Virus record (IMG/VR): IMGVR_UViG_3300010885_001264
Coordinates: 1-20,330 of that record
DNA from: a virus
Strand: one strand, 5' to 3'
Length of the DNA: 20,330 bases
Shown here: positions 3,507 through 19,787 of the stretch, piece by piece
Position numbering within the stretch: the stretch's first letter is position 1
How the letters are laid out: each line of letters opens with the position of its first letter
The notes under the pieces: generated by a model
What the model was told of the DNA's origin: nothing
What the model saw: the letters and a program-made list of their open reading frames with translations, nothing else
Database searches by the model: none
Program-made: the position numbers and the translations under genes

Positions 3507-3814
3507 ATTTAACAATTATTAATGAAGATAATGCTGTATATGTTGATGGCATTGCTTTAGCGGGATTAAATTTATCTACAACAGGAATACCTGATAATGT
3601 TCATGCTTTGCAATGGAAAACTAATTTAGGGTGGATTGAGTTTAAAGAAAATTCTAATTTTTCTAAAGACCAAAATGAAATAATTAACGAATTACCTATT
3701 TGGGCTAATAATTGTGTCAATGTTTATAATGCAAAAATATTAGAAATACAAACCCAACAGGCTCGATTAGCTTCACAACCACAACCCATATCTACTGGAA
3801 CTCAAACACTATGA
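3503..3814 (+). CDS. Small conserved phage protein of unknown function
   Basis: A 103-residue protein without cysteines of note or membrane segments. The N-terminal part (NLTIINEDNAVYVDGIALAG) and the block GIPDNVHALQWK, then GWIEFKENSNF, are patterns I recall from small phage proteins near tail fibres; no function is known to me. The N-terminal half is beta-like, and the second half (LPIWANNCVNVYNAKILEIQ) is helical, ending in a Gln/Pro/Thr-rich tail. It overlaps both neighbours by four bases (ATGA at 3503 and at 3811), with GGGAG at 3492-3496 as its binding site. This makes a translationally coupled trio with the four-cysteine protein and the second cupin, so the three may act together. Confidence 0.8.
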   Translation: MNLTIINEDNAVYVDGIALAGLNLSTTGIPDNVHALQWKTNLGWIEFKENSNFSKDQNEIINELPIWANNCVNVYNAKILEIQTQQARLASQPQPISTGTQTL

Positions 3815-4116
3815 GTCAAATAATCCCCCAAAGTAAAGTAATAGCCGCACCTCCAGCACATAGCCTTACTTATGATGGTACAACTTTAAATATATTTCAC
3901 GTTAATAAAGGTGAGGGATTACCTGCTCATAATCATCAATTTGCTCATGCAACTATGTGTATGGCTGGTTCTTGTGTAGTTCGTAAAGATAGTAAAGAAT
4001 TAGTTATGACTAAAATGACGCAACCTGTAAATTTGGTTGCAAATGATTGGCATGAAATTGAAGCACTTGAAGATAACACAGTATTTGCTAATATGTTTGC
4101 TGAAGGTAAATATTAA
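3811..4116 (+). CDS. Small cupin-fold protein (second of three)
   Basis: A 101-residue single-domain cupin. Motif 1 is PAHNHQFAHATMCMAGS, giving H40, H42 and H46; motif 2 is ANDWHEIEALED, giving H81. This is the same HxHxxxH...H set as in the cupin at 796, although the two proteins are otherwise clearly different, so they look like distant relatives rather than a fresh duplication. The preceding strand (TLNIFHVNKGEG) and the following ones (SCVVRKDSKEL, TVFANMF) fit a small barrel. A metal-binding role is supported by the residues; the substrate is unknown. Translation is coupled to the previous gene through the ATGA at 3811-3814. It is the last gene before the lysis block. Confidence 0.8.
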   Translation: MSQIIPQSKVIAAPPAHSLTYDGTTLNIFHVNKGEGLPAHNHQFAHATMCMAGSCVVRKDSKELVMTKMTQPVNLVANDWHEIEALEDNTVFANMFAEGKY

Positions 4117-8082: not shown

Positions 8083-8559
8083 GTGGCTGGAATTTTGGGT
8101 GGTGGCGAAGAACTTTTAGGTAGGTCTTTAAATATTGCAAATATAATTGCAAACAACGGTCAAAACACGCCTAACTCTGGTATTGCTGGTCACAAAAATT
8201 CTTTTGATGCGCAAATAATACTGCATGATTTTCAACTTAGAGGTATACCAATTAAAGATGGTATGGCTGGAGTAGCACAAGAATTGAAACAAGGATTAAG
8301 AATGTATCGCCAGTCTAAAACAATCCTTGCAATTAAAAAGTTAAGTCCTACAGAAGCCCAAATACATATTTTTACTTTAGATGATGAACCTACGTTTCAA
8401 AAACTAGTTAATTTTTGGGTGGGTAAATTAAAAGAAGCTGGTTGTAAAATAATTTATGATAGCGTAGCCGACCCACATATGGTTAAAGCACTTCAACAAG
8501 CTGGTGTGCAGTTGCAACAACCCACTAACCCTAAATATAAACTAATGGGGTTAATATGA
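8083..8559 (+). CDS. Phage protein of unknown function, distantly GNAT-like
   Basis: A 158-residue soluble protein starting at GTG. The middle (MAGVAQELKQGLRMYRQSKT) is a helix. The C-terminal half runs strand (AQIHIFTLD), helix (TFQKLVNFWVGKLKEAG), strand (CKIIYDSV), helix (ADPHMVKALQQAGVQL), strand (KYKLMGLI). This order resembles the second half of a GNAT acetyltransferase, but the acetyl-CoA loop with the Q/RxxGxG/A pattern is not present, so it may be an inactive or unrelated alpha/beta protein. I recall similar small proteins in aquatic phages, annotated as hypothetical. The start is supported by TAAGGAG. The stop overlaps the third cupin ATG (ATGA at 8556), which implies coupling. Confidence 0.75.
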   Translation: MAGILGGGEELLGRSLNIANIIANNGQNTPNSGIAGHKNSFDAQIILHDFQLRGIPIKDGMAGVAQELKQGLRMYRQSKTILAIKKLSPTEAQIHIFTLDDEPTFQKLVNFWVGKLKEAGCKIIYDSVADPHMVKALQQAGVQLQQPTNPKYKLMGLI

Positions 8560-8957
8560 ACCAAGTAGCACAAACTACAAGCCAAAAAATTGAAGTTATA
8601 CTGCCTGAGTTAAAAAAATTACCACAAGTAAATTGTTTTGAAAAACATTATTTTGGACCAAGTTTATATATTAAAGAAGTAACAATGCCTGCTGGGGCAG
8701 TTATTGTTGGTAAACCCCACAAAGTAGAGCATATGTGTGTTATGTTACAAGGTAAAATGGTCTTAGTAGCAGAAGATGGGTCTAAAAAAGAAGTTTGTGC
8801 CCCTATGACATTTGTAGGAACTCCCGGACGTAAGGTAGCTTATATAATAGAAACAACAGTTTTTCAAAATATCTATGCAACTGAAGAAACCGATGTAGAG
8901 AAATTAGAAAATATGTTTATTGAAAATTCCCAGCGCTTGCTGGAAAAGGAGATTTAA
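8556..8957 (+). CDS. Cupin-like protein with a degenerate metal site (third of three)
   Basis: A 133-residue protein with a cupin-like core between residues about 35 and 110. The segment VGKPHKVEHMCVMLQGKMVL aligns with motif 1 of the other two cupins: K53 is where their first His stands, while H55 and H59 keep the second and third. The motif 2 region reads TPGRKVAYIIE with no His, so two of four ligands are missing. The protein is therefore either metal-free or uses other ligands; a binding or structural role is more likely than catalysis. The ending YATEETDVEKLENMFIENSQ is a helical tail absent from the other two. Its ATG overlaps the previous stop. The next gene starts right after its stop, with AAAAGGAG inside its 3' end. 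Confidence 0.7.
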   Translation: MNQVAQTTSQKIEVILPELKKLPQVNCFEKHYFGPSLYIKEVTMPAGAVIVGKPHKVEHMCVMLQGKMVLVAEDGSKKEVCAPMTFVGTPGRKVAYIIETTVFQNIYATEETDVEKLENMFIENSQRLLEKEI

Positions 8958-8958
8958 T

Positions 8959-10329
8959 ATGGCTTTTGTTGATGTGGCTTTAGCTGTTGGTACGTTTGTT
9001 GGGGCTGATGCTCTTGGCGCTGGCGCTGCTACCTTAATTGGCGGAGGTCTTTTGGGGGCTGGTGCTGGCGGACTTTATGGCGGTTTAACTGGCGGCAATG
9101 TTGGTAAAGATATGTTATATGGCGGACTTTTAGGTGCTGGCGGTGCTTATTTAGGCGGTGCGGGGGCTGCTACTACCCCGGCAATGGAAACTGCGCAAGC
9201 GGGTACTTTGGGTGGAGCTAATTCTATAGGCACAGTTGCTAATGCAGTTGCTAACCCATCCTTATCTTCACTTCCTGCAGCTAATATTATGGCAGATACA
9301 GGTGGTATGGCTCTTCCAGGAATGGCTTCAGGTGCTGTTTCCGCCGCTGGAATTGGAGCTGGAACTGCGGCAAGTGGATTAGCAAGTTATTTACCTACTG
9401 CAAAACAAGCGGCAATGGGATTAACTGCGGCGGCATTATTAAAAAATGCGACACAAAATAATGTGCCTACTCAACTTCAACAGCCAAATAGCAATCCAAT
9501 GGGGCTTGCTAGGTTATCGCCTAATTTTAAAGGATACCAACCAAATCAACCAAACCCATACTATAACGCACAGTATCCAAATTATGTGCAAAATCCATAT
9601 GCACCGATACAAATGGCTGAAGGTGGATTAACTCCTTCTGACTCACAAGGTACTGTTGAACAAATGTCCCGTGAAAATGCTATGGGGGGTAATACAATGT
9701 TTCCTCAGTCCGGCATAGGCGGTTTAACTGGCGCAAATACATATCAAAACGCTACTAATACTCCAATGGGGTCTAATGTTATAGAACCAACCGACGCTAT
9801 TACTGACCCTTATACTGGTCAAATGAAGTTTGCTTCAGGCGGACATTTATCATCGTCCCCTAGTATTCCTGATACAGGCATTTTCTATGACAGTGATTTG
9901 ACAACTAAAAACTTACCTGCATGGAATGCAGCTCAAGCTAAGTACAAGCAAATAGCGGGTAGAGCAAATATTAAATCGTTAGCATTACCTAAAACAAATA
10001 TAGAAAAATTAGGTGGTGATTTTTCTGATACTGGCGCATCAGGTGGTATTGCTACATTAGGTTCTTACTCAGATGGTGGACATTTGCTTAAAGGTCCCGG
10101 TGATGGTATGAGTGATAACATACCTGCACAAATTGGAAAGCATCAACCTGCTCGTTTAGCCGACGGTGAATTTGTTGTACCTGCCGATGTGGTGTCACAT
10201 TTAGGTAATGGTTCGACTGAAGCTGGCGCTAAAAAATTATATACCATGATGGATAAAGTAAGACAAGCAAGAACTGGTAAAAAAGCTCAAGGAAAACAAA
10301 TTAAAGCAGATAAATTTTTGCCCACATAA
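8959..10329 (+). CDS. Glycine/alanine-rich virion or ejection protein with GPGDGMSD C-terminal module
   Basis: A 456-residue protein. I chose the ATG at 8959, which has AAAAGGAG a few bases before it; the in-frame ATG at 8920 would overlap the third cupin by 38 bases and add an atypical, charged N-terminus. Residues 1 to about 165 are Gly/Ala-rich and hydrophobic (with GAGAATLIGGGLLGAGAGGL), resembling membrane-active or ejected internal proteins. A Pro/Asn/Tyr-rich middle follows. The C-terminal module contains YSDGGHLLKGPGDGMSD, then QPARLADGEFVVPADVVSHL and GNGSTEAGAKKLYTMMDKVR; I recall this module from podovirus structural proteins, without a proven role. Motifs AEGGL, ASGGH and SDGGH recur. 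The next gene's ATG abuts its stop. Participation in the internal or tail channel is inference. Confidence 0.75.
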   Translation: MAFVDVALAVGTFVGADALGAGAATLIGGGLLGAGAGGLYGGLTGGNVGKDMLYGGLLGAGGAYLGGAGAATTPAMETAQAGTLGGANSIGTVANAVANPSLSSLPAANIMADTGGMALPGMASGAVSAAGIGAGTAASGLASYLPTAKQAAMGLTAAALLKNATQNNVPTQLQQPNSNPMGLARLSPNFKGYQPNQPNPYYNAQYPNYVQNPYAPIQMAEGGLTPSDSQGTVEQMSRENAMGGNTMFPQSGIGGLTGANTYQNATNTPMGSNVIEPTDAITDPYTGQMKFASGGHLSSSPSIPDTGIFYDSDLTTKNLPAWNAAQAKYKQIAGRANIKSLALPKTNIEKLGGDFSDTGASGGIATLGSYSDGGHLLKGPGDGMSDNIPAQIGKHQPARLADGEFVVPADVVSHLGNGSTEAGAKKLYTMMDKVRQARTGKKAQGKQIKADKFLPT

Positions 10330-10761
10330 ATGTTAAGATTTGCTCAGTCGTTAGAAGCTAAACAAGTTGCAGCTGATATACTGCTTAAAGAAGTTGGGGT
10401 TCAACCTTGTGGTGATTTACAAGCATTGTTTTGGGTTGATGCAGAAAATAAAATTGAATGGGTTGTAGGTTATACGGCTTTTATAGGTAAGACTTGTCAA
10501 GTGCATTTTGTTAATCTTAAGGGTGGGTATACCCCCAAAGGATTATTGTTTGGTGCGTTTGATTTTCCGTTTAACCATTGTGGTTTAGAAAAAGTATTTG
10601 GTATAGTTAATAGCAAGAATACAAAAGCTGTTGAATATGATAGAAAAGTCGGGCTTAAAGAAGCTTTACGATTTGAAGGTATGCACGATAATGACGGCGA
10701 TTTAATAGTCCTATACATGGATAAAGCCGATTGTAGATGGATTAGGGAGCGTAGAAAATGA
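10330..10761 (+). CDS. GNAT-family acetyltransferase
   Basis: A 143-residue protein with a GNAT-like order of elements: strands [10 protein letters not shown] and [10 protein letters not shown], a helix over [14 protein letters not shown], then strand and helix in [20 protein letters not shown] and the ending [20 protein letters not shown]. The [16 protein letters not shown] segment is typical of GNAT helix 4 and the Asn-binding part of the acetyl-CoA site. The classical RxxGxG loop is replaced by GGYTPKG, which is a deviation that may or may not bind CoA. T7-like and other podoviruses encode a related small acetyltransferase near internal virion genes; the target is unknown. The ATG abuts the previous stop, and the stop overlaps the next ATG (10758), so it is translated within the virion gene block. 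Confidence 0.8.
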
Positions 10762-13124
10762 GATATGATTTAGAATCAACACTGCCTGAACGGGCATTTA
10801 AAAAGAGTTTATTTAAGAACGCCCCCGCAACTTTAGAAGGCGGTAAGGGCGGTGGTGGTGGTGGAACGCCTGCTCCAACGCAATCTACTTCATACCAAAC
10901 TAACATACCCGAGTATGCGCAACCGTATGTAGAGAACATGCTTAATGCTACACAAAGCCAATTGTTTAATACAGATTCTAGTGGCATAACCGGATTTAAA
11001 CCTTACCAGCCATATAGTTCTAACCCGTCAGATTACTATGCTGGGTTTAGTCCGATGCAGCAACAAGCGCAATCGGCAGCTGCTAATTTACAAACCCCCG
11101 GACAGTTTAATCAAGGTAGTGCTTTAACAGGCATGGCTGGATTAGGTTCAATGCAAGCGGGACAAAATTTTCAAAATATGGCAACTGACCCTAATGCGGT
11201 TAATGCTTATATGAACCCATATTTGCAGGCTAGTTTACAACCACAATTACAAGAAATGCAACGTCAGTATGGTATTACTGGCGCACAACAAGCTGGACAA
11301 GCTACACAAGCAGGCGCATTTGGTGGTGGTAGAGATGCTGTTATGGCGGCTGAAAACGAACGCAACAAGAATATGGCAATGAACCAAGCCATTGGTCAAG
11401 GGTATAACACAGCGTTTAATAACGCTCAAAGCCAAATGAATGCTGGCGCACAGTTAAATCTACAAGGTTTAAATCAAGCTGGTCAAGCTGGAGCTGGATT
11501 AGCCGGTATTGGTGGTCAGCAACTTGCCGCACAACAAGGCATTATTGGTACTCAAACACAACAAGGTGGAGCTCAGCAAGCTGCGGAACAAAGCAAGATT
11601 AATCAAGCTGTTCAAGATTACGGTACGGCTCAACAATACCCAATGATGCAATTAGGTTTAATGTCTAATATGTTGCGTGGGTTACCAATGCAATCTACGG
11701 CGGTTCAATCTTACCAAGCACAAGCACCTGTTGCACAACAAGCTGCCGGTTTACTCGGCGCATACAATGCTTATACAGGTAAAAAAGAAGGCGGCGCAAT
11801 TAAAGCTATGGCTAAGGGCGGTATTGCCGATGCTATACCTGGATATAAATCTGGTGTTTTAGTTGGCTTAGAAAATACAATTGATGACATAGCACAGTCT
11901 GATGTATATGCAGGGGAAGGACAAAAACAATTACCTAAGTTAATGCAACAATCAACAAGCCCCGGTATTAAACAACTTATTGCTACTAAACAAGCTGAAG
12001 ATCAAATGGGTCAAAACATGTCTGGTGTAGCTGCAGGTAATACAGGCGACTTAGGTATGAACATGGCTGAAGGTGGAATTATTCCTAGGTTTGCTGGTAA
12101 AGAAACTAGCGAAGTTAAAGACCCATATGGTTTAACTGCCGCTGCTACTGAAGCAACAAAAGGTTATGCAACTCCTGAAGAAACCCTTGCAACAACCCAA
12201 GGACTACAAAAAACTGCGTTGCAAAATTTACAAGGAAACTTATCTCCTGAAGAATTAGAACAACAAAAATATGTTGCAGAACGTAGAACAGGATTATCTG
12301 AAAAACAACGCCGAGCAGAAAAAATGAATGAAGCTTTAGCATGGCTAGAAGCAGGTTCTACTGTAGGTGGGTTAGGTACTGCTGCTATTGCCGGTGGTAA
12401 AAAGTATATGTTAGGTCAAGCTGATATTAACAAAACTTATGAAGACTTAAACGATAACTTAATTAAACAAGCAGCTGAAATTAAAAAAGCTCAACGTGCT
12501 GAAGCTAATGGCAATATTGATAAAGCTCAAACCCACTATGAAAAAGCTACGGGATATAAATTAGCAGCAGTTAAAGATAATGCTTCATTTCAAAATACAC
12601 TCACAACACATGAAATGGATAATACAAGCCGTGAAAGAGCTGCTCAAATTAATGCAGCTGTTCATGCTGCACCAACGGAACTTTTAAAACAAAGACTAAA
12701 ACAGTACACGGAAGAATTAACTGCGAAACATAAGGCTGAAGGTTTACCACCACCTACGTTATATGACATAGAAACTCGAATGACTCAAGCAACTAAAACA
12801 GCTGATGAAACAATTGCAGGGGCGGATAGAAGACTTGCTAAGGGAAAATATGCTGATTTCTTAGCAACGTTGCCTTATGATCCATTAATTGCAGTAGATG
12901 TTCAAAAAGCGTCTAAAGGCGATAAAGACGCTGCAGCTAGGGTAGAAAAATATAAACAAGAAAGAAAAGCAGAACTTGGCCTTACATCAGTTGCTCCGCC
13001 ATCACAAAACACAGGTGGAGTACCACAAGGTGCTGTTGATGCTTTAAAGAAAGACCCAAAGTTAGCGGAACAATTTGATACAAAATATGGCCCAGGTGCA
13101 GCAAGTAAAATACTAGGTAGATAA
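10758..13124 (+). CDS. Gln/Ala/Gly-rich internal or tail virion protein
   Basis: A 788-residue protein. The N-terminus has a glycine run (residues about 29-36), then [20 protein letters not shown], a pattern I recall from aquatic podovirus structural proteins. Residues about 100-330 are a long Gln/Ala/Gly-rich helical region containing [21 protein letters not shown] middle part carries [15 protein letters not shown] and [12 protein letters not shown], echoing motifs in the 456-residue protein upstream. The C-terminal 300 residues are charged and helical ([20 protein letters not shown] and onward), ending without a known domain. No membrane segment or catalytic motif is apparent. AGGGAG at 10744-10749 is its binding site, and its ATG overlaps the acetyltransferase stop. 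By order and size it may correspond to a T7-type internal core protein, which is inference. Confidence 0.75.
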
Positions 13125-16100
13125 ATGGCAAACTTTTTTGACCAATATGACGAGGCAACAAAAGAGAAACCAGCTAATAATTACTTCGATAGATTTGACG
13201 TAAATCCTAAAGAAGAAAAAAAAGCTGAAAACTATTTTGATAAGTTTGATGCTAAACCCGAACCTACGCCGGAAACAGAAAGTTTTTCTACGCTTAGACA
13301 ATGGGCAGATTTACCTTTAAAAGGTACACAAGGTGCAATCATGGGTATTCGTATGGTTGCCGATGCTTTTGGTGCTGGTAGCGAAACAAGCAAAACATTA
13401 AAAAGCGGTGAAGATTATCTTGGTGAATTAATGAGTGCGCAGTCTAAACAAGACTCTAAAGAAATTTCACGCATTATGAAAGAAGCTGAAGATAAAGGCG
13501 CATGGGAACAAGTTAAAGCTGGATTAAAAGCTTTAAGCGTAGCCCCAGCTGATATTATTGTAAATTCGCTAGGTACAGCTGCTCCAGCTATTATTGCTGG
13601 TTTAGGCTTAACTGTTTTAAGTGCGCCAGCTGCGGTTGTTACAGCAGGTGGTATGGGTGTTGGCGCTCTTATGGGCGCTGGTAATATTAAAAGTACTATA
13701 TATGATGCTGTTAAAGAAGAGCTAGGCAAGACTGATATACCTAAAGATAAGATTGAAGAAATAGCGCAACAAGCTCAAAATTACAAAGGCAAAAATTTAG
13801 ACATGATTGCTCTTGGGACTATTATTAATGCTGTAGGTGCTGGTACAGGTATTGAACCTGCAATAGCTAAAAATTTAGCTAAAGGAATTATAGCAAAAGT
13901 AGGTAAAGACGAAGCTAAAAATATTGTTAAAGAAGAAACTAAAAATCTTACCAAAGAAGAAACTAAACTTCTTGCTAAAAAAGAAGCCGCACAAATTGCT
14001 AAAGAAAAAGCCGAAGAGGAAACTAAAAATATTGCTAAACAGGGCATTAAAAAATATGCTGCTAAAGAAGGCGCAACAGAATTTGGTACAGAATTTACTC
14101 AAGCTGGGCAAGAACAATTTTCTGAAAACCTTGCATTACGCCGAGAAGGTTATGACGTACCATTAATGCGTGGCGTTATTAGTAATGCCGTGCTTGAAGG
14201 TATTGCTGGGTTAGGTATGGGTTTTGGTGTTGGGGTAAACACTGCCTATCAAGCTAAACAAGAAGTAGCTAAACTTAACCAAGAAACCAAAGATATTATT
14301 AAACAGGACTTAGAGTCTAAAGGTATTAATGCAACTGATGAGCAACTAGATGAGGTTGTAGAAAGTGTTAATAAAATTAGAGAGGAGAAAAAACAAAATG
14401 TTGCAAGAGATAATAATCGAGTTGACACCGGAACTAATCAGCCAAGCGTTCTTGTATCTGAAGAGCAAGCAGGACAAGGAACCACCACAGGGGCTGGAGA
14501 AACTACCACTACAGACATGGGTGGAGCTGGACAGACTGTTGCAGGACTTGGAAATCGAGAAACTAATGAGCCTAGTGCATTAACAGGAGTTAACCCGAAT
14601 TTAAATTTTGGTAAAGCGTTAAGTCTTGGCGCTGCTGATAAAGCATATATACAAATGTTTGATGCTTATAAAAATGGCTCAACAAAAATGGGCGGTCTTG
14701 AAGATTCAGTATTGCGCACAGCTAAAATAGAGGGGATTGTTTTTAATTCTCCTGAAGAAATTCAACAGTATGCAAATAATAATCAAGAAAAAATTAAGCA
14801 AACAGCTCAAGAAATACGTTTAGAAAATATTAAAAAAAACAAAAATCAAACTAAACCGGCTACCGTTATAGCAGAAGAAACTAATGAGCCTAGTGCACTA
14901 GAATCAAAAACAGTTGAAGAGTTGCAAGACATTAAGAACAACTACGAAGTAGAACAAAAAATAAACTTATACAAAAATGGCAACATACCAAAAGAAGGTA
15001 CTAAACGCCGCCAAGAATATGATGCGTTACAAATACGTATAGACAACGTTAATTCACTTATTACACAAAAAACTGCGCCAGAACAAACTGCACCGGTTAA
15101 TGTAAATGGTAAACAAATTACGCCAGAAAGCCAAACAAAAGCTGCAAAATTAGGCGAGTATCAAAATGCAATGATTGATGCGATGAATGGGTCTACATAC
15201 AATCCTGCACTTGTGCCACAAGAAACTTTAAATGAGTTAGAAAGTAACGAGTTAATAAAACTTAGTGCCGACAATAAACTTGAGTTATTGCCTAAAGGTA
15301 AGCAGATGCTTGTGCAAATGCAAAAAGGTGGTACCAACCTAGAAGAAATTTTTGCTAATTTTATTAAACCTATTGAGCCAGAACAAACTGCACCGTGGGA
15401 ATATGGGGTTATTAAACCTACCGATTTTACTCAGTTTAAAGAAGGTGTGCCCGGTAGTAACGTTACCGAGGCCGAGACAACGGGGCAAACTCAAGAACAA
15501 ACAGCCGAAGAAGATAAAGTTCGTACAGCTAATAATATACCTCGTATTGAAACGTTGCCTGAAGACTTGCAACGGAACCCTATAGTTCAGCAATACCATA
15601 ATTTATTTAGTGAATGGTTGGCAGCTAAAGACTTAAATGACGAAGTCGGTCAAAAAGAAATAGCCGCACAAATGCGTACTATACGAGCAACTTTACCTGA
15701 AGGACATCCTTCAGTTGTAGCGCAGCCTAAAGCTAAGGGTAAAGGCAACGGAAAAAATAAAAAAGAAAAAGTAGCACTTTCAGATGAAAGCGATATAGAC
15801 AGCCCAAAACTTAGTGAAGGCTCTGATATTTTATTTAAACCGGTACATCCTTTAGTTGATGCGGCTATACACAAAGGTGATTTACGTGCAGCGTTACAAG
15901 CAATAGTAAAAACTGGGGGTAACTATCTCAGCAATTTAGCAGCTAGATTATTAACTTTGAATACTAATGTAGTTATCGGCTATGACTTACAAGACAAATT
16001 AATACCTAAATATCTTGATACAGTTAAAGATCAAAAAGGTCGTATTGTTCAGTTTATTGAAATCATCCGTCCTGATATTTATAACCAGCATTTTAATGAG

Positions 16101-19100
16101 TCATTAATGCTTGACCCGTTAACGCAACTTACAGAATCATTTAACAAACTTAAAAACGGTGATTTTGGTTTAAATTTAAAAAGTTTTGAAAAAGATTTAA
16201 GTGATATAACTAGAGTTTATAACGGTGCTGTGGCTGCTAACAGTGCCCCTGGATTTTTTTATAACAATTCAATTTCGTTTAATAGTGAGTTTGACCGTAA
16301 AAAATATGGCAAAGGTCCTGCTACCACACAAACTTTTATGCACGAAGTTATCCATGCATTTACACATTGGGCAATTAACAACCCTGGGTTATTAAACGCA
16401 GAACAAAAAAAAGCTTTAGATAATTTAAATACATTATATGAACAAGCTAAAGCTAAAACAAAAAATCCTGAGCTATATGGGTATAGAACACTACACGAAT
16501 TTGTAGCCGAAGCATTTAGTAATGTTAAATTTCAAAGAGAATTGCGGCAAATAAGCGCTGGTCCTGAAACTGCGGCTAAACAATCACTCTGGTCTAGATT
16601 TATACATACTATATATAGATTGCTTAACACACCAAATAAAAAAGGTGAAATTTGGGGCACCAACAATGTTTTATTCCATACACTGGCTAATACAGATATT
16701 TTATTCTCGGCTAGAAAAGGCGAAGATACTGCCGACATAAACTCGCCATTAATGGCACCAACTGGGTTTAATGTTAAAAATGGCAAAGTAAAAGTTAATG
16801 AACGAGAAACTGGACTTATTAATTCATTGATTGGTAACCGTCAAAAGTTTAGTAGCCTTAACAAAAATAATCTATCGTCGTTTCTTAGCACTTTAAATGA
16901 CCAATACAGAAGGTACTTGCTTGGTGGGTTAACACTTGATCAGATGACTGATATTGTTGGTGAAGCTTTACCGCAGTTTAAAGAATACGTTAGAGCAATA
17001 GATGCAATGCTTGATACTCGTAATAAAATATTACTTGAAGGTGAAAAGTCTCTTAAAGATTGGAGTCATCTACTAGAAAGTAATCCAGAAAAAGCTAAAC
17101 AACTTGGCACTGCAATGATTGAAGCAACGTTTGCTAAATTAGATCCTGATCCAAAAGTTGCAGGATATGATGCGGCTAAATTTAAACATACTAAACAAGG
17201 GCAACGTGCTCTTGCTGCGTGGAAAGAACTAGAGTCTGGTAAAGATGCCGACAAAGCTATAGCAATCTACCGTGATGTGCGTGGTTTTTACGAACGTCGT
17301 ATGGAAGAATATATCAAAATTGAACTAGATAGATTAGTCGAACGTGAACAAGTAAATAAGACTACACCAGAAAAAATTAAAGAATTAAAAGACGCACGGG
17401 AAAAAGACCTTAGAAAAGATATTATTAAACCTTATTTTCCTATTAAACGTTTTGGTGATTACTGGATACAGGTAGGTAAGGATACTGATAAAGTATTTAT
17501 GCAGTTTGAAAATGCTGCTGCCCGTAATATAGCTTTACAAGAAGCTTATGATGACTTAATAAAACAAGGGCATACCGAAGATGACATATTAGGTGCAGGT
17601 GGTTTGCTTGATTATGGTAACCAATTTAAAGTTGAAATGAGCCAAAAGTTAGCTGACTACGCACAGCTCAGCAAGTTGCATGATTTAATTAATGACACAA
17701 CGGTAGAAGTGCAGTCAGGCAGTGCGGTAGATAAAGCCGAGTCGTTACGTGATAAATTAAACGAAAACATTGACCAATTATATTTGGAGTTAATGCCGTC
17801 AGAAAGCATTAAAAAAATGTTTATACACCGTAAGAACGTTGCGGGTCCTAGCCAAGATATGCTTCGTGCGTTTGCTGTGTCTCGGCAACGTGTTGCTTAT
17901 CAACGCTCAAGGTTCCAACACTTACCACAATTATTTTTAATTCTTAAAGCAGCTAATAAACGTTTAGCTTCAATGCCGTTTGATGAAAAAACTAAATGGC
18001 GTGACTATGTACGTGAGTTAGAACTTAACCTTAAAACTGCTGTACTTGAACCACCTAAACAAAGTAAGCTAACAACTTATTTAACTCAATTTGGGTTCTT
18101 ACAATACTTAACTGCCCCTGCTTCGGCAGTTGTTAACATGATGGCAGTACCCGGTATTTATATCCCGGCAGCTGCGCCTAAATATGGTGCAAGTAACGTA
18201 GCAACTTCTTTGGCTAAATATAATCGTATGCTTGGTGGCACAGGTTTTACTGATGAGCGTACAGGCAAATGGGAGTTTTGGTCTTTAGCCCGTGCAGAAT
18301 TACAGAATTTAAACTTTGCTGGTACAGAAGCAAACAAAGTAACTTTACCTGCTGGTAAAACTCTTGCTGATGTGTATCAAGAAGGTGTGTCTCGCAACGT
18401 TATTGACGTAACTTTATCGCATGATGCCGCAGCAATCGGCGAACAACCATCAAACGAATATACAGGTCGTTGGCAGAAAGTTATGTATTACGCTAGTTTA
18501 CCGTTTCATGCTGCTGAAAAATATAACCGTGAAACAACATTCATGGCTACGTTTGATATGGCATATAGAAAGTATATTGACAAAGGATATACAAAAGAAA
18601 ATGCTTATGAAGCTGCGGTAGATGATGCCCGTGATTTAGTTCAAAGCACTATGTTTAACTACAACACTATAAACAAACCTCGTTACTTCCGGGGTGATTT
18701 CCGTAATGTTTTATTGCAATTTAAAATGTATCCGCAACATATGACTGTACTTATGTTTAGAACCTTTCAAAAAGGTTGGGCTAGTACCGCAAAAGCTGAA
18801 ATGGAAAAATATAAAGAACAAATTTTAAAATCCCCACAAGATGTACAAGATAAATTAATTGCTGAAAAAGAAGCTGAACTAAAACAATTAGGTAAAGAAG
18901 CTAAACAACAATTTATGGGTATGATGGGCATGACATTTTTATTTGCTGGTGCATCAGGACTGCCATTATTTTTTATATTTGAAGCTGTAGCTACTGCATT
19001 CCATGCAGTGTTTGGTGATGACGATGAACCTTTTGATGTAGATAATTGGTTTAAAAATTGGTGTAATCGCACATTTGGTGGGTTTGTTGGTGATTCCATA

Positions 19101-19787
19101 TCTCGTGGTTTAGTATCTCAAGCTACCGGATTAAACTTTGCTGACCGTATGAGTGTTAACTTAAACGATATGTGGTTTCCTGATGTTAAGAAAAGTAATG
19201 ATGAAGTACAGTATATGCAAAATATGATAACTAATTTACTTGGGCCAACAGCAGGTGCGTTTTTAAACTACGGCGAAGCATTGAAACGTTATAACGATGG
19301 GCACACAGAACGTGCATTTGAGGCAATCGTGCCAGCGGCTATTAAAAATGTAATGGTTGGTACTAGATATTTAGTCGAAGGAAAAGCTCTTACATTAAAA
19401 GGTGCTGAGTTAGATTCTAATGTAACTGCGGGTAAAGCACTTGCACAGATGCTTGGTTTTACTCCCGAAGAAATTGCACAAAAACAAAAAGCGTCTATTG
19501 AGATGAAAGGTGCTGAACAAGAAATATTAAATCGGCATACTGATTTGCTTAACTCTTTCTTTATTGCTATGGATGCTGGTGATTCAGATATGCTTGAAAG
19601 AGTTATGGGTAAAATAATTAAATTTAACGTTGCTAATCCTGGGTCTGCAATAAAAGCGGATACATTGCGTACGTCAGTAATTAAGCGCTATAAAGATAGA
19701 GCTTTAGCTAATATTACAGGTGGAATGGGCATTAATAAAAAACTTGCCCCACAACTAAAAGATATGCTTGGCTACGCAGAGGAATAA
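13125..19787 (+). CDS. 2220-residue polyvalent internal virion protein with HExxH metallopeptidase motif
   Basis: One uninterrupted frame, starting directly after the previous stop. Residues 3-42 hold three copies of N-[FY]-F-D-x-[FY]-D. A hydrophobic stretch spans about 145-190, and a Lys/Glu 8-residue repeat lies at 265-296. Residues about 425-720 are low-complexity linkers. Residues about 945-1150 form a metallopeptidase-like domain: MHEVIHAFTH (H1073, E1074, H1077) and later LHEFVAEAF (E1129 a possible third ligand). From about 1200 it is long-helical (YRRYLLGGLTLDQMTDIVGE), with hydrophobic pieces near 1670 and 1931-1962. This fits large polyvalent phage proteins that are packaged in the capsid and ejected; the peptidase could process virion or host proteins. 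It carries a candidate nested gene at 14398-14583. The product is much longer than T7 gp16 (about 1300 residues). Confidence 0.85.
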   Translation: MANFFDQYDEATKEKPANNYFDRFDVNPKEEKKAENYFDKFDAKPEPTPETESFSTLRQWADLPLKGTQGAIMGIRMVADAFGAGSETSKTLKSGEDYLGELMSAQSKQDSKEISRIMKEAEDKGAWEQVKAGLKALSVAPADIIVNSLGTAAPAIIAGLGLTVLSAPAAVVTAGGMGVGALMGAGNIKSTIYDAVKEELGKTDIPKDKIEEIAQQAQNYKGKNLDMIALGTIINAVGAGTGIEPAIAKNLAKGIIAKVGKDEAKNIVKEETKNLTKEETKLLAKKEAAQIAKEKAEEETKNIAKQGIKKYAAKEGATEFGTEFTQAGQEQFSENLALRREGYDVPLMRGVISNAVLEGIAGLGMGFGVGVNTAYQAKQEVAKLNQETKDIIKQDLESKGINATDEQLDEVVESVNKIREEKKQNVARDNNRVDTGTNQPSVLVSEEQAGQGTTTGAGETTTTDMGGAGQTVAGLGNRETNEPSALTGVNPNLNFGKALSLGAADKAYIQMFDAYKNGSTKMGGLEDSVLRTAKIEGIVFNSPEEIQQYANNNQEKIKQTAQEIRLENIKKNKNQTKPATVIAEETNEPSALESKTVEELQDIKNNYEVEQKINLYKNGNIPKEGTKRRQEYDALQIRIDNVNSLITQKTAPEQTAPVNVNGKQITPESQTKAAKLGEYQNAMIDAMNGSTYNPALVPQETLNELESNELIKLSADNKLELLPKGKQMLVQMQKGGTNLEEIFANFIKPIEPEQTAPWEYGVIKPTDFTQFKEGVPGSNVTEAETTGQTQEQTAEEDKVRTANNIPRIETLPEDLQRNPIVQQYHNLFSEWLAAKDLNDEVGQKEIAAQMRTIRATLPEGHPSVVAQPKAKGKGNGKNKKEKVALSDESDIDSPKLSEGSDILFKPVHPLVDAAIHKGDLRAALQAIVKTGGNYLSNLAARLLTLNTNVVIGYDLQDKLIPKYLDTVKDQKGRIVQFIEIIRPDIYNQHFNESLMLDPLTQLTESFNKLKNGDFGLNLKSFEKDLSDITRVYNGAVAANSAPGFFYNNSISFNSEFDRKKYGKGPATTQTFMHEVIHAFTHWAINNPGLLNAEQKKALDNLNTLYEQAKAKTKNPELYGYRTLHEFVAEAFSNVKFQRELRQISAGPETAAKQSLWSRFIHTIYRLLNTPNKKGEIWGTNNVLFHTLANTDILFSARKGEDTADINSPLMAPTGFNVKNGKVKVNERETGLINSLIGNRQKFSSLNKNNLSSFLSTLNDQYRRYLLGGLTLDQMTDIVGEALPQFKEYVRAIDAMLDTRNKILLEGEKSLKDWSHLLESNPEKAKQLGTAMIEATFAKLDPDPKVAGYDAAKFKHTKQGQRALAAWKELESGKDADKAIAIYRDVRGFYERRMEEYIKIELDRLVEREQVNKTTPEKIKELKDAREKDLRKDIIKPYFPIKRFGDYWIQVGKDTDKVFMQFENAAARNIALQEAYDDLIKQGHTEDDILGAGGLLDYGNQFKVEMSQKLADYAQLSKLHDLINDTTVEVQSGSAVDKAESLRDKLNENIDQLYLELMPSESIKKMFIHRKNVAGPSQDMLRAFAVSRQRVAYQRSRFQHLPQLFLILKAANKRLASMPFDEKTKWRDYVRELELNLKTAVLEPPKQSKLTTYLTQFGFLQYLTAPASAVVNMMAVPGIYIPAAAPKYGASNVATSLAKYNRMLGGTGFTDERTGKWEFWSLARAELQNLNFAGTEANKVTLPAGKTLADVYQEGVSRNVIDVTLSHDAAAIGEQPSNEYTGRWQKVMYYASLPFHAAEKYNRETTFMATFDMAYRKYIDKGYTKENAYEAAVDDARDLVQSTMFNYNTINKPRYFRGDFRNVLLQFKMYPQHMTVLMFRTFQKGWASTAKAEMEKYKEQILKSPQDVQDKLIAEKEAELKQLGKEAKQQFMGMMGMTFLFAGASGLPLFFIFEAVATAFHAVFGDDDEPFDVDNWFKNWCNRTFGGFVGDSISRGLVSQATGLNFADRMSVNLNDMWFPDVKKSNDEVQYMQNMITNLLGPTAGAFLNYGEALKRYNDGHTERAFEAIVPAAIKNVMVGTRYLVEGKALTLKGAELDSNVTAGKALAQMLGFTPEEIAQKQKASIEMKGAEQEILNRHTDLLNSFFIAMDAGDSDMLERVMGKIIKFNVANPGSAIKADTLRTSVIKRYKDRALANITGGMGINKKLAPQLKDMLGYAEE
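13131..13250 (+). repeat. Three N-[FY]-F-D-x-[FY]-D motifs at the N-terminus of the large protein
   Basis: NFFDQYD (residues 3-9), NYFDRFD (19-25) and NYFDKFD (36-42) are spaced by 16 and 17 residues and separated by charged Lys/Glu/Pro linkers. FDxFD-type repeats are known to me from the N-termini of other phage polyvalent and internal proteins. They may be short binding peptides for a partner virion protein; this is inference. Confidence 0.8.
13917..14012 (+). repeat. Four in-frame 24-bp units encoding Lys/Glu-rich octapeptides
   Basis: The units read KNIVKEET, KNLTKEET, KLLAKKEA and AQIAKEKA (residues 265-296 of the large protein). They are followed by EEET and KNIAKQG, which looks like a further displaced partial unit up to about 14045. 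The composition predicts a charged helix or coiled coil. The antisense and +1 open frames here are by-products of this composition. Confidence 0.8.
14381..14387 (+). promoter_or_regulatory. Shine-Dalgarno-like site before the nested ORF
   Basis: AGAGGAG lies inside the large virion gene, 10 bases before the ATG at 14398, with an A-rich spacer (AAAAAACAAA). In the host frame it encodes part of REEKKQN. AG-rich codons are common here, so chance is possible, but strength and distance suit an internal start. Confidence 0.5.
14398..14583 (+). CDS. Candidate nested (overprinted) gene, 61 residues, +1 frame inside the large virion gene
   Basis: This frame starts at ATG 14398 and ends at TAA 14581-14583, entirely inside the 2220-residue gene. 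The product begins MLQEIIIELTPELISQAFLY and continues with LKSKQDKEPPQGLEKLPLQT, then WVELDRLLQDLEIEKLMSLV and a final H. It reads like a compact helical protein: helix, a PP-containing turn, then an amphipathic helix. The same bases in the host frame (residues about 425-486) give a low-complexity Thr/Gly/Ala linker (TTTGAGETTTTDMGGAGQTV), as expected if the nested frame carries the selected sequence. AGAGGAG at 14381-14387 provides an initiation site. The function is unknown; there is no membrane segment. The alternative is that the ORF is a chance frame in a helical-biased, A-rich gene. A longer in-frame ATG at 14365 lacks a good binding site. Confidence 0.55.
   Translation: MLQEIIIELTPELISQAFLYLKSKQDKEPPQGLEKLPLQTWVELDRLLQDLEIEKLMSLVH
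14559..14579 (+). repeat. Direct repeat copy A (21 bp), at the 3' end of the nested ORF
   Basis: This 21-base segment recurs exactly at 14877-14897, 318 bases (106 codons) downstream. In the host frame it encodes ETNEPSA. In the +1 frame, with the bases just after it, it encodes KLMSLVH followed by a stop. Confidence 0.85.
14877..14897 (+). repeat. Direct repeat copy B (21 bp)
   Basis: Exact second copy of the segment at 14559. The +1 frame again reads KLMSLVH and then a stop (TAG at 14899), but it is closed upstream by TAG at 14869, so no second nested gene survives here. The host frame reads ETNEPSAL in both copies. Confidence 0.85.
15078..15095 (+). repeat. Direct repeat (18 bp) encoding PEQTAP, copy A
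   Basis: This 18-base segment recurs exactly at 15378-15395, 300 bases (100 codons) downstream in the same frame. Both copies fall in low-complexity linkers of the large virion protein (APEQTAPV and EPEQTAPW). Together with the 21-bp repeat it shows that this linker region contains repeated pieces. Confidence 0.8.
15378..15395 (+). repeat. Direct repeat (18 bp) encoding PEQTAP, copy B
   Basis: Second exact copy of the segment at 15078. After it the sequence changes to WEYGVIKPTDF, so only the short motif is shared. Confidence 0.8.

Follow-up and report, generated by a model that had tools for sequence, protein, structure and literature searches.

The Rz1 gene of phage lambda lies wholly within Rz in a different frame and is translated from an internal start (PMC5295617), and the embedded lysis genes of RNA phages are likewise nested in a different frame and internally started (PMC7693330). 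Polyvalent proteins are large phage products predicted to be injected, among whose domains LPD39 has been described as potentially enzymatic (Iyer et al. 2017, PMC5512222); a term search of that paper gave neither "overlapping" nor "overprint". In the locus presented here, a small gene is predicted to lie out of frame within a giant polyvalent protein gene.

A nested reading frame in a polyvalent protein gene

The window, i.e., the whole stretch of 20,330 nucleotides of viral DNA that was analysed, carries a 2220-codon ORF on the plus strand (13125-19787). A preliminary description had proposed an overprinted gene inside it, and its coordinates, frame and spacer were confirmed: a 61-codon ORF (14398-14583, plus strand) with an ATG start and a TAA stop occupies the +1 frame relative to the large ORF, and is preceded by the Shine-Dalgarno sequence AGAGGAG (14381-14387, plus strand) at a spacing of 10 bases. 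The length of the bare ORF is unremarkable, since an ATG ORF of at least 61 codons occurred in the +1 or +2 frame in 65% of synonymous shuffles of the large gene; an ORF of that length with a Shine-Dalgarno sequence occurred in 1.4%. Other long +1 or +2 ORFs of the window (15403-15585, 18421-18621 and 9446-9631) lack a Shine-Dalgarno sequence, do not rank with the stretches of least synonymous change in their genes, and were treated as chance. Common gene callers, to our knowledge, permit only short overlaps between genes on the same strand, so that a fully nested gene is likely to be missed.

The C-terminal part of the large protein is similar to LPD39 and DarB-like polyvalent proteins. An LPD39 domain was detected above the cut-off at residues 1259-1411 (16899-17357, plus strand; E 7.7e-13), the match to a DarB-like PHROG had an E-value of 5.3e-60, and proteins of named phages are about 24-28% identical to this C-terminal part. 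Judged by these two similarities, the large gene belongs among the polyvalent protein genes. Its neighbours include an endolysin gene, a gene for a virion structural protein and, immediately upstream (10758-13124, plus strand), a gene with weak similarity to the DNA ejection protein family phrog_4287 (E 0.0011); genes for similar products were found near most of the overlap-bearing genes examined. This neighbourhood suggests that the large protein is probably packaged in the virion and injected. The earlier designation of the containing gene as a virion gene agrees with its neighbours and with its LPD39 and DarB-like similarity, and we infer it from these rather than from virion proteomics. 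Elsewhere in the window, three short ORFs (796-1131, 3811-4116 and 8556-8957) appear cupin-like from a reading of their translations, and the last matches short tail fibre PHROGs.

The large frame across the overlap (14397-14582, plus strand) encodes a linker rich in A, G, P, T and V, downstream of a conserved N-terminal region (13257-14204, plus strand) that is common to most carriers of the small gene. Some carriers (L055/L056/L185/L186/L199, L194/L195/L201 and L203) have N termini with no or only short matches to this region; the C-terminal part of L203 is 53% identical to that of the window while its N terminus is unrelated, and in L012 and L042 it is the C-terminal part that is not matched to the window's. 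From these alignments, the small gene is placed where the exchangeable N- and C-terminal parts of LPD39/DarB-related polyvalent proteins meet. The motif TN[QE]PS[VA]L occurs three times in the large protein, twice inside the overlap (14433-14453 and 14562-14582) and once outside it (14880-14900).

Relatives and start signals of the small gene

A search with the 61 residues identified products of 87%, 57% and 56% identity in other viral contigs, nested in ORFs of ~2000 codons. Relatives were collected using the N-terminal region of the large protein as the query, and a profile then located the same small ORF in most of them; after later scans the family comprised 132 viral loci with 74 distinct sequences, all from uncultivated phages, and further carriers beyond these 132 loci were found in other searches. 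The products are 55-73 residues long. Stops in the +1 frame of relatives would have spoken against the proposed gene; the frame is open in all 74 distinct sequences and in each lies in the +1 frame of a long ORF, with none free-standing. The stop codon is TAA in 34, TAG in 31 and TGA in 9, and each of the 15 contigs searched whole has a single copy. Searches for free-standing homologues found none among the fetched loci, among named phages (by tblastn), in genome contigs (which were searched with both the small and the large protein), or in 26 contigs of large-gene relatives lacking the small gene, for which the query was one that matched 15/15 carrier contigs. Six isolate regions with a similar C-terminal part also contain no copy of the small gene.

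On a tree of 78 large-gene relatives, the small gene is present in 52 and absent from 26, which indicates that the large protein is not dependent on it everywhere. Presence and absence require 7 changes on this tree, as opposed to about 22 with shuffled labels, a count that does not separate gain from loss. Two uncultured spring phage genomes, MW202496.1 and MW202701.1 (L058 and L059), have genes with a short N-terminal similarity to the large protein, and the small gene is absent from the part of them that was read. Other +1-frame ORFs were observed among large-gene relatives that lack the window's small gene. Far downstream in the large gene, L024 (9736-9999), L027 (9848-10165), L113 (9998-10309) and L053 (9970-10317), all on the plus strand, have a different ORF sharing the motif LDLNNLPFDPA; in the one pair compared (L024/L027, 34 codons) the substitution pattern favours neither reading. 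In a sister clade, L100 (7508-7657), L106 (7502-7651) and L109 (7427-7576) have a basic 49-codon +1-frame ORF (VDKPSPYEQRLLRQ...) with AAGGA in the corresponding linker. The protein is the same in all three, and none of the few base changes alters it, although these numbers are tiny.

The start signals of the small gene recur across the family. All 74 distinct sequences have a start codon (ATG in 61, GTG in 13, TTG in none), and a Shine-Dalgarno match of at least 5 bases is found in 61/74 and none recognisable in 5/74. The Shine-Dalgarno counts lean upward, because whichever candidate start near the conserved domain had the longest match was the one picked. The spacer is exactly 6 bases in 53/74, so that the 10-base spacer of the window is longer than usual; neither this constant spacing nor the missing TTG was, in the strict sense, selected for by the start-picking rule.

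Selection on the two frames

Substitution rates were compared in 18 disjoint pairs of relatives, with each locus used once and phylogenetic independence not guaranteed, covering 1057 codons in the overlap and 30452 outside it. Pattern scans could not use alignments A2 and A4, whose diversity was too great. Fourfold-degenerate sites of the large gene had changed at 16/546 (2.9%) in the overlap versus 4093/11222 (36.5%) elsewhere, a ~12-fold suppression of synonymous change that spans the small ORF but spares its flanks. With 30-codon bins, the two that cover codons 0-59 from the small start had rates of 0.029 and 0.037 and every other bin 0.25-0.47, the drop starting at the small start codon and stopping near the small stop. 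An unbiased scan of the window against its nearest relative, L087, gave the same location, with the six lowest windows of the large gene beginning within 14400-14475 and covering 14400-14580. Differences at the first, second and third codon positions of the large frame were 0.252, 0.128 and 0.089 in the overlap and 0.177, 0.123 and 0.383 outside it, i.e., the most variable position of the overlap is the third of the small frame, which is the first of the large frame. Among 493 single differences, those silent in only the small frame made up 50.5%, against an expected 25.8%, and those silent in only the large frame 15.6%, against an expected 29.2%. Amino-acid identity is 0.84 in the small protein; the large frame has 0.68 across that stretch and 0.78 in the remainder of its protein. 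By these measures constraint is stronger on the small frame than on the large one, and the substitution patterns show strong purifying selection on the predicted small protein in its own frame. The large frame is evidently selected as well, since a stop would enter it in 94% of cases when the small proteins are recoded synonymously at random. The low-complexity linker noted earlier in this frame was recovered across the family, in which A/G/P/T/V account for 67% of overlap residues, compared to a fraction of 0.50 predicted from the codon shadow alone; the low complexity of the large frame is partly a by-product of the small protein's codons.

Conservation in relatives and the substitution rates together rule out a chance ORF at 14398-14583. 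Constraint by an RNA or DNA element (a structure, packaging or recombination signal) instead of a second protein would also suppress synonymous change, but the suppression is frame-specific, its limits are those of the small ORF, the first position of the large frame varies more in the overlap than elsewhere, and the product is kept across indels with a conserved Trp; this explanation was rejected on the frame-specific pattern and is very improbable. Equally hard to credit is production of the +1 product by programmed frameshifting from the large frame. The +1 frame is indeed open for some codons 5' of the start in most relatives (median 22 codons), but in five sequences (L012, L084, L097, L108 and L153) the small frame has a stop codon immediately 5' of its start codon, so that a frameshift upstream could not feed these ORFs, and the start codon and Shine-Dalgarno sequence recur at constant spacing. 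Frameshifting was rejected on account of these abutting stops, and internal initiation at the Shine-Dalgarno sequence is the likely, remaining route to the small product. Taken with the conserved +1 frame, the start signals and the suppressed synonymous change, which bear out the overprinted gene first proposed, 14398-14583 is very probably a functional gene nested out of frame, real and translated. Ribosomes would initiate within the mRNA of the large polyvalent gene and yield an acidic, mostly helical protein of 55-73 residues. The large frame is kept open through the overlap, where its linker tolerates double coding, and this DNA lies at the joint where the large protein exchanges its N- and C-terminal modules.

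The small protein, its possible role and related systems

The small proteins have a mean net charge of about -5, a median pI of 4.8, 23% Leu and almost no Gly. A Trp is present in all 70 distinct proteins, and the C-terminal residue is His or Gln in 68/70. AlphaFold predicts two helices for the window member (pLDDT 72) and, using a 72-sequence alignment, helices at residues 7-18 and 34-53 for L012 (pLDDT 87); the helix, PP turn, single Trp and amphipathic helix read from the window's product alone match these models and the family consensus. No significant family or fold match was obtained in Pfam, PHROGs, NCBIfam, PADLOC or PDB, where scattered hits involved 1-3 members each; matches to NblA (E 0.0019) and to a PADLOC entry (E 0.0006), each in 1/72 members, were judged to be chance. 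Inspection of the translations revealed no lipobox or hydrophobic N terminus and no evident signal sequence or membrane segment.

The genomic association prompts a guess, which we consider possible rather than probable, that the small product could assist virion assembly as a late accessory (e.g., a chaperone or adaptor), serving either the large injected protein or the ejection-protein neighbours. The idea of a direct partner is weakened by the fact that no N- or C-terminal module is shared by every carrier. The gene could be real and its product instead act on the bacterial host, in takeover, anti-defence or timing, merely sharing the mRNA of the large gene: small phage proteins often do so (reviewed in PMC11323111), and a gene that stays at the joint while both flanking modules are exchanged need not depend on the large protein. 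This host-directed role is the main rival and only slightly less probable than the accessory guess; against it, the gene is always nested in this one gene beside virion-type genes and never free-standing, and its product has no consistent match in the PADLOC library. Compatible with a functional overprinted gene is the reverse history, in which the small gene is the older and a fusion of two genes across it gave rise to the large-frame linker. The greater conservation of the small protein, a low-complexity linker that is in part a shadow of the small gene's codons, and the meeting of unrelated N termini at the same point all fit this order of events, but 0/74 sequences have a free-standing copy or a split large gene, and the large gene is uninterrupted in relatives without the small gene; we regard it as an open contender, somewhat short of even. 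Similarly tentative is the broader proposal that the module joint of giant phage polyvalent proteins may be a recurrent dual-coding site, where the small gene stays while unrelated N- and C-terminal parts are exchanged and where sister lineages that lack it carry different +1-frame genes, whether in that linker or at another place in the large gene.

The overlap described here represents a statistically solid and widespread candidate for an overprinted gene in tailed phages, and its product a new small protein family open to direct testing. The linkers of giant phage proteins merit a systematic search for hidden genes by the same fourfold-site test, and knowing the role of the small protein would inform the question of how huge injected proteins are produced, packaged or prevented from doing harm.

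Like lambda Rz1 and the embedded lysis genes, the small gene is fully nested out of frame, probably with an internal start. Unlike Rz1, a lipoprotein spanin that works with the product of its host gene, the small protein has no evident signal for export or membrane insertion, and it is embedded in a giant polyvalent protein gene; an Rz1-like embedded o-spanin does not fit, as the acidic two-helix product shows no lipoprotein signal on inspection of the translations and the containing gene is not an i-spanin gene. The LPD39 domain and DarB-like similarity ally this containing gene with the polyvalent proteins of Iyer et al. (2017, PMC5512222). As in virus genes born by overprinting (reviewed in PMC8227390), constraint on the dual-coded stretch is frame-specific and one frame is of low complexity; here it is the small protein that looks folded and the large frame that is of low complexity. 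Nesting of phage genes out of frame is itself known; within the reach of the searches, the novelty lies in a small protein family that lacks free-standing relatives and in its position where the modules of a giant polyvalent gene are exchanged.
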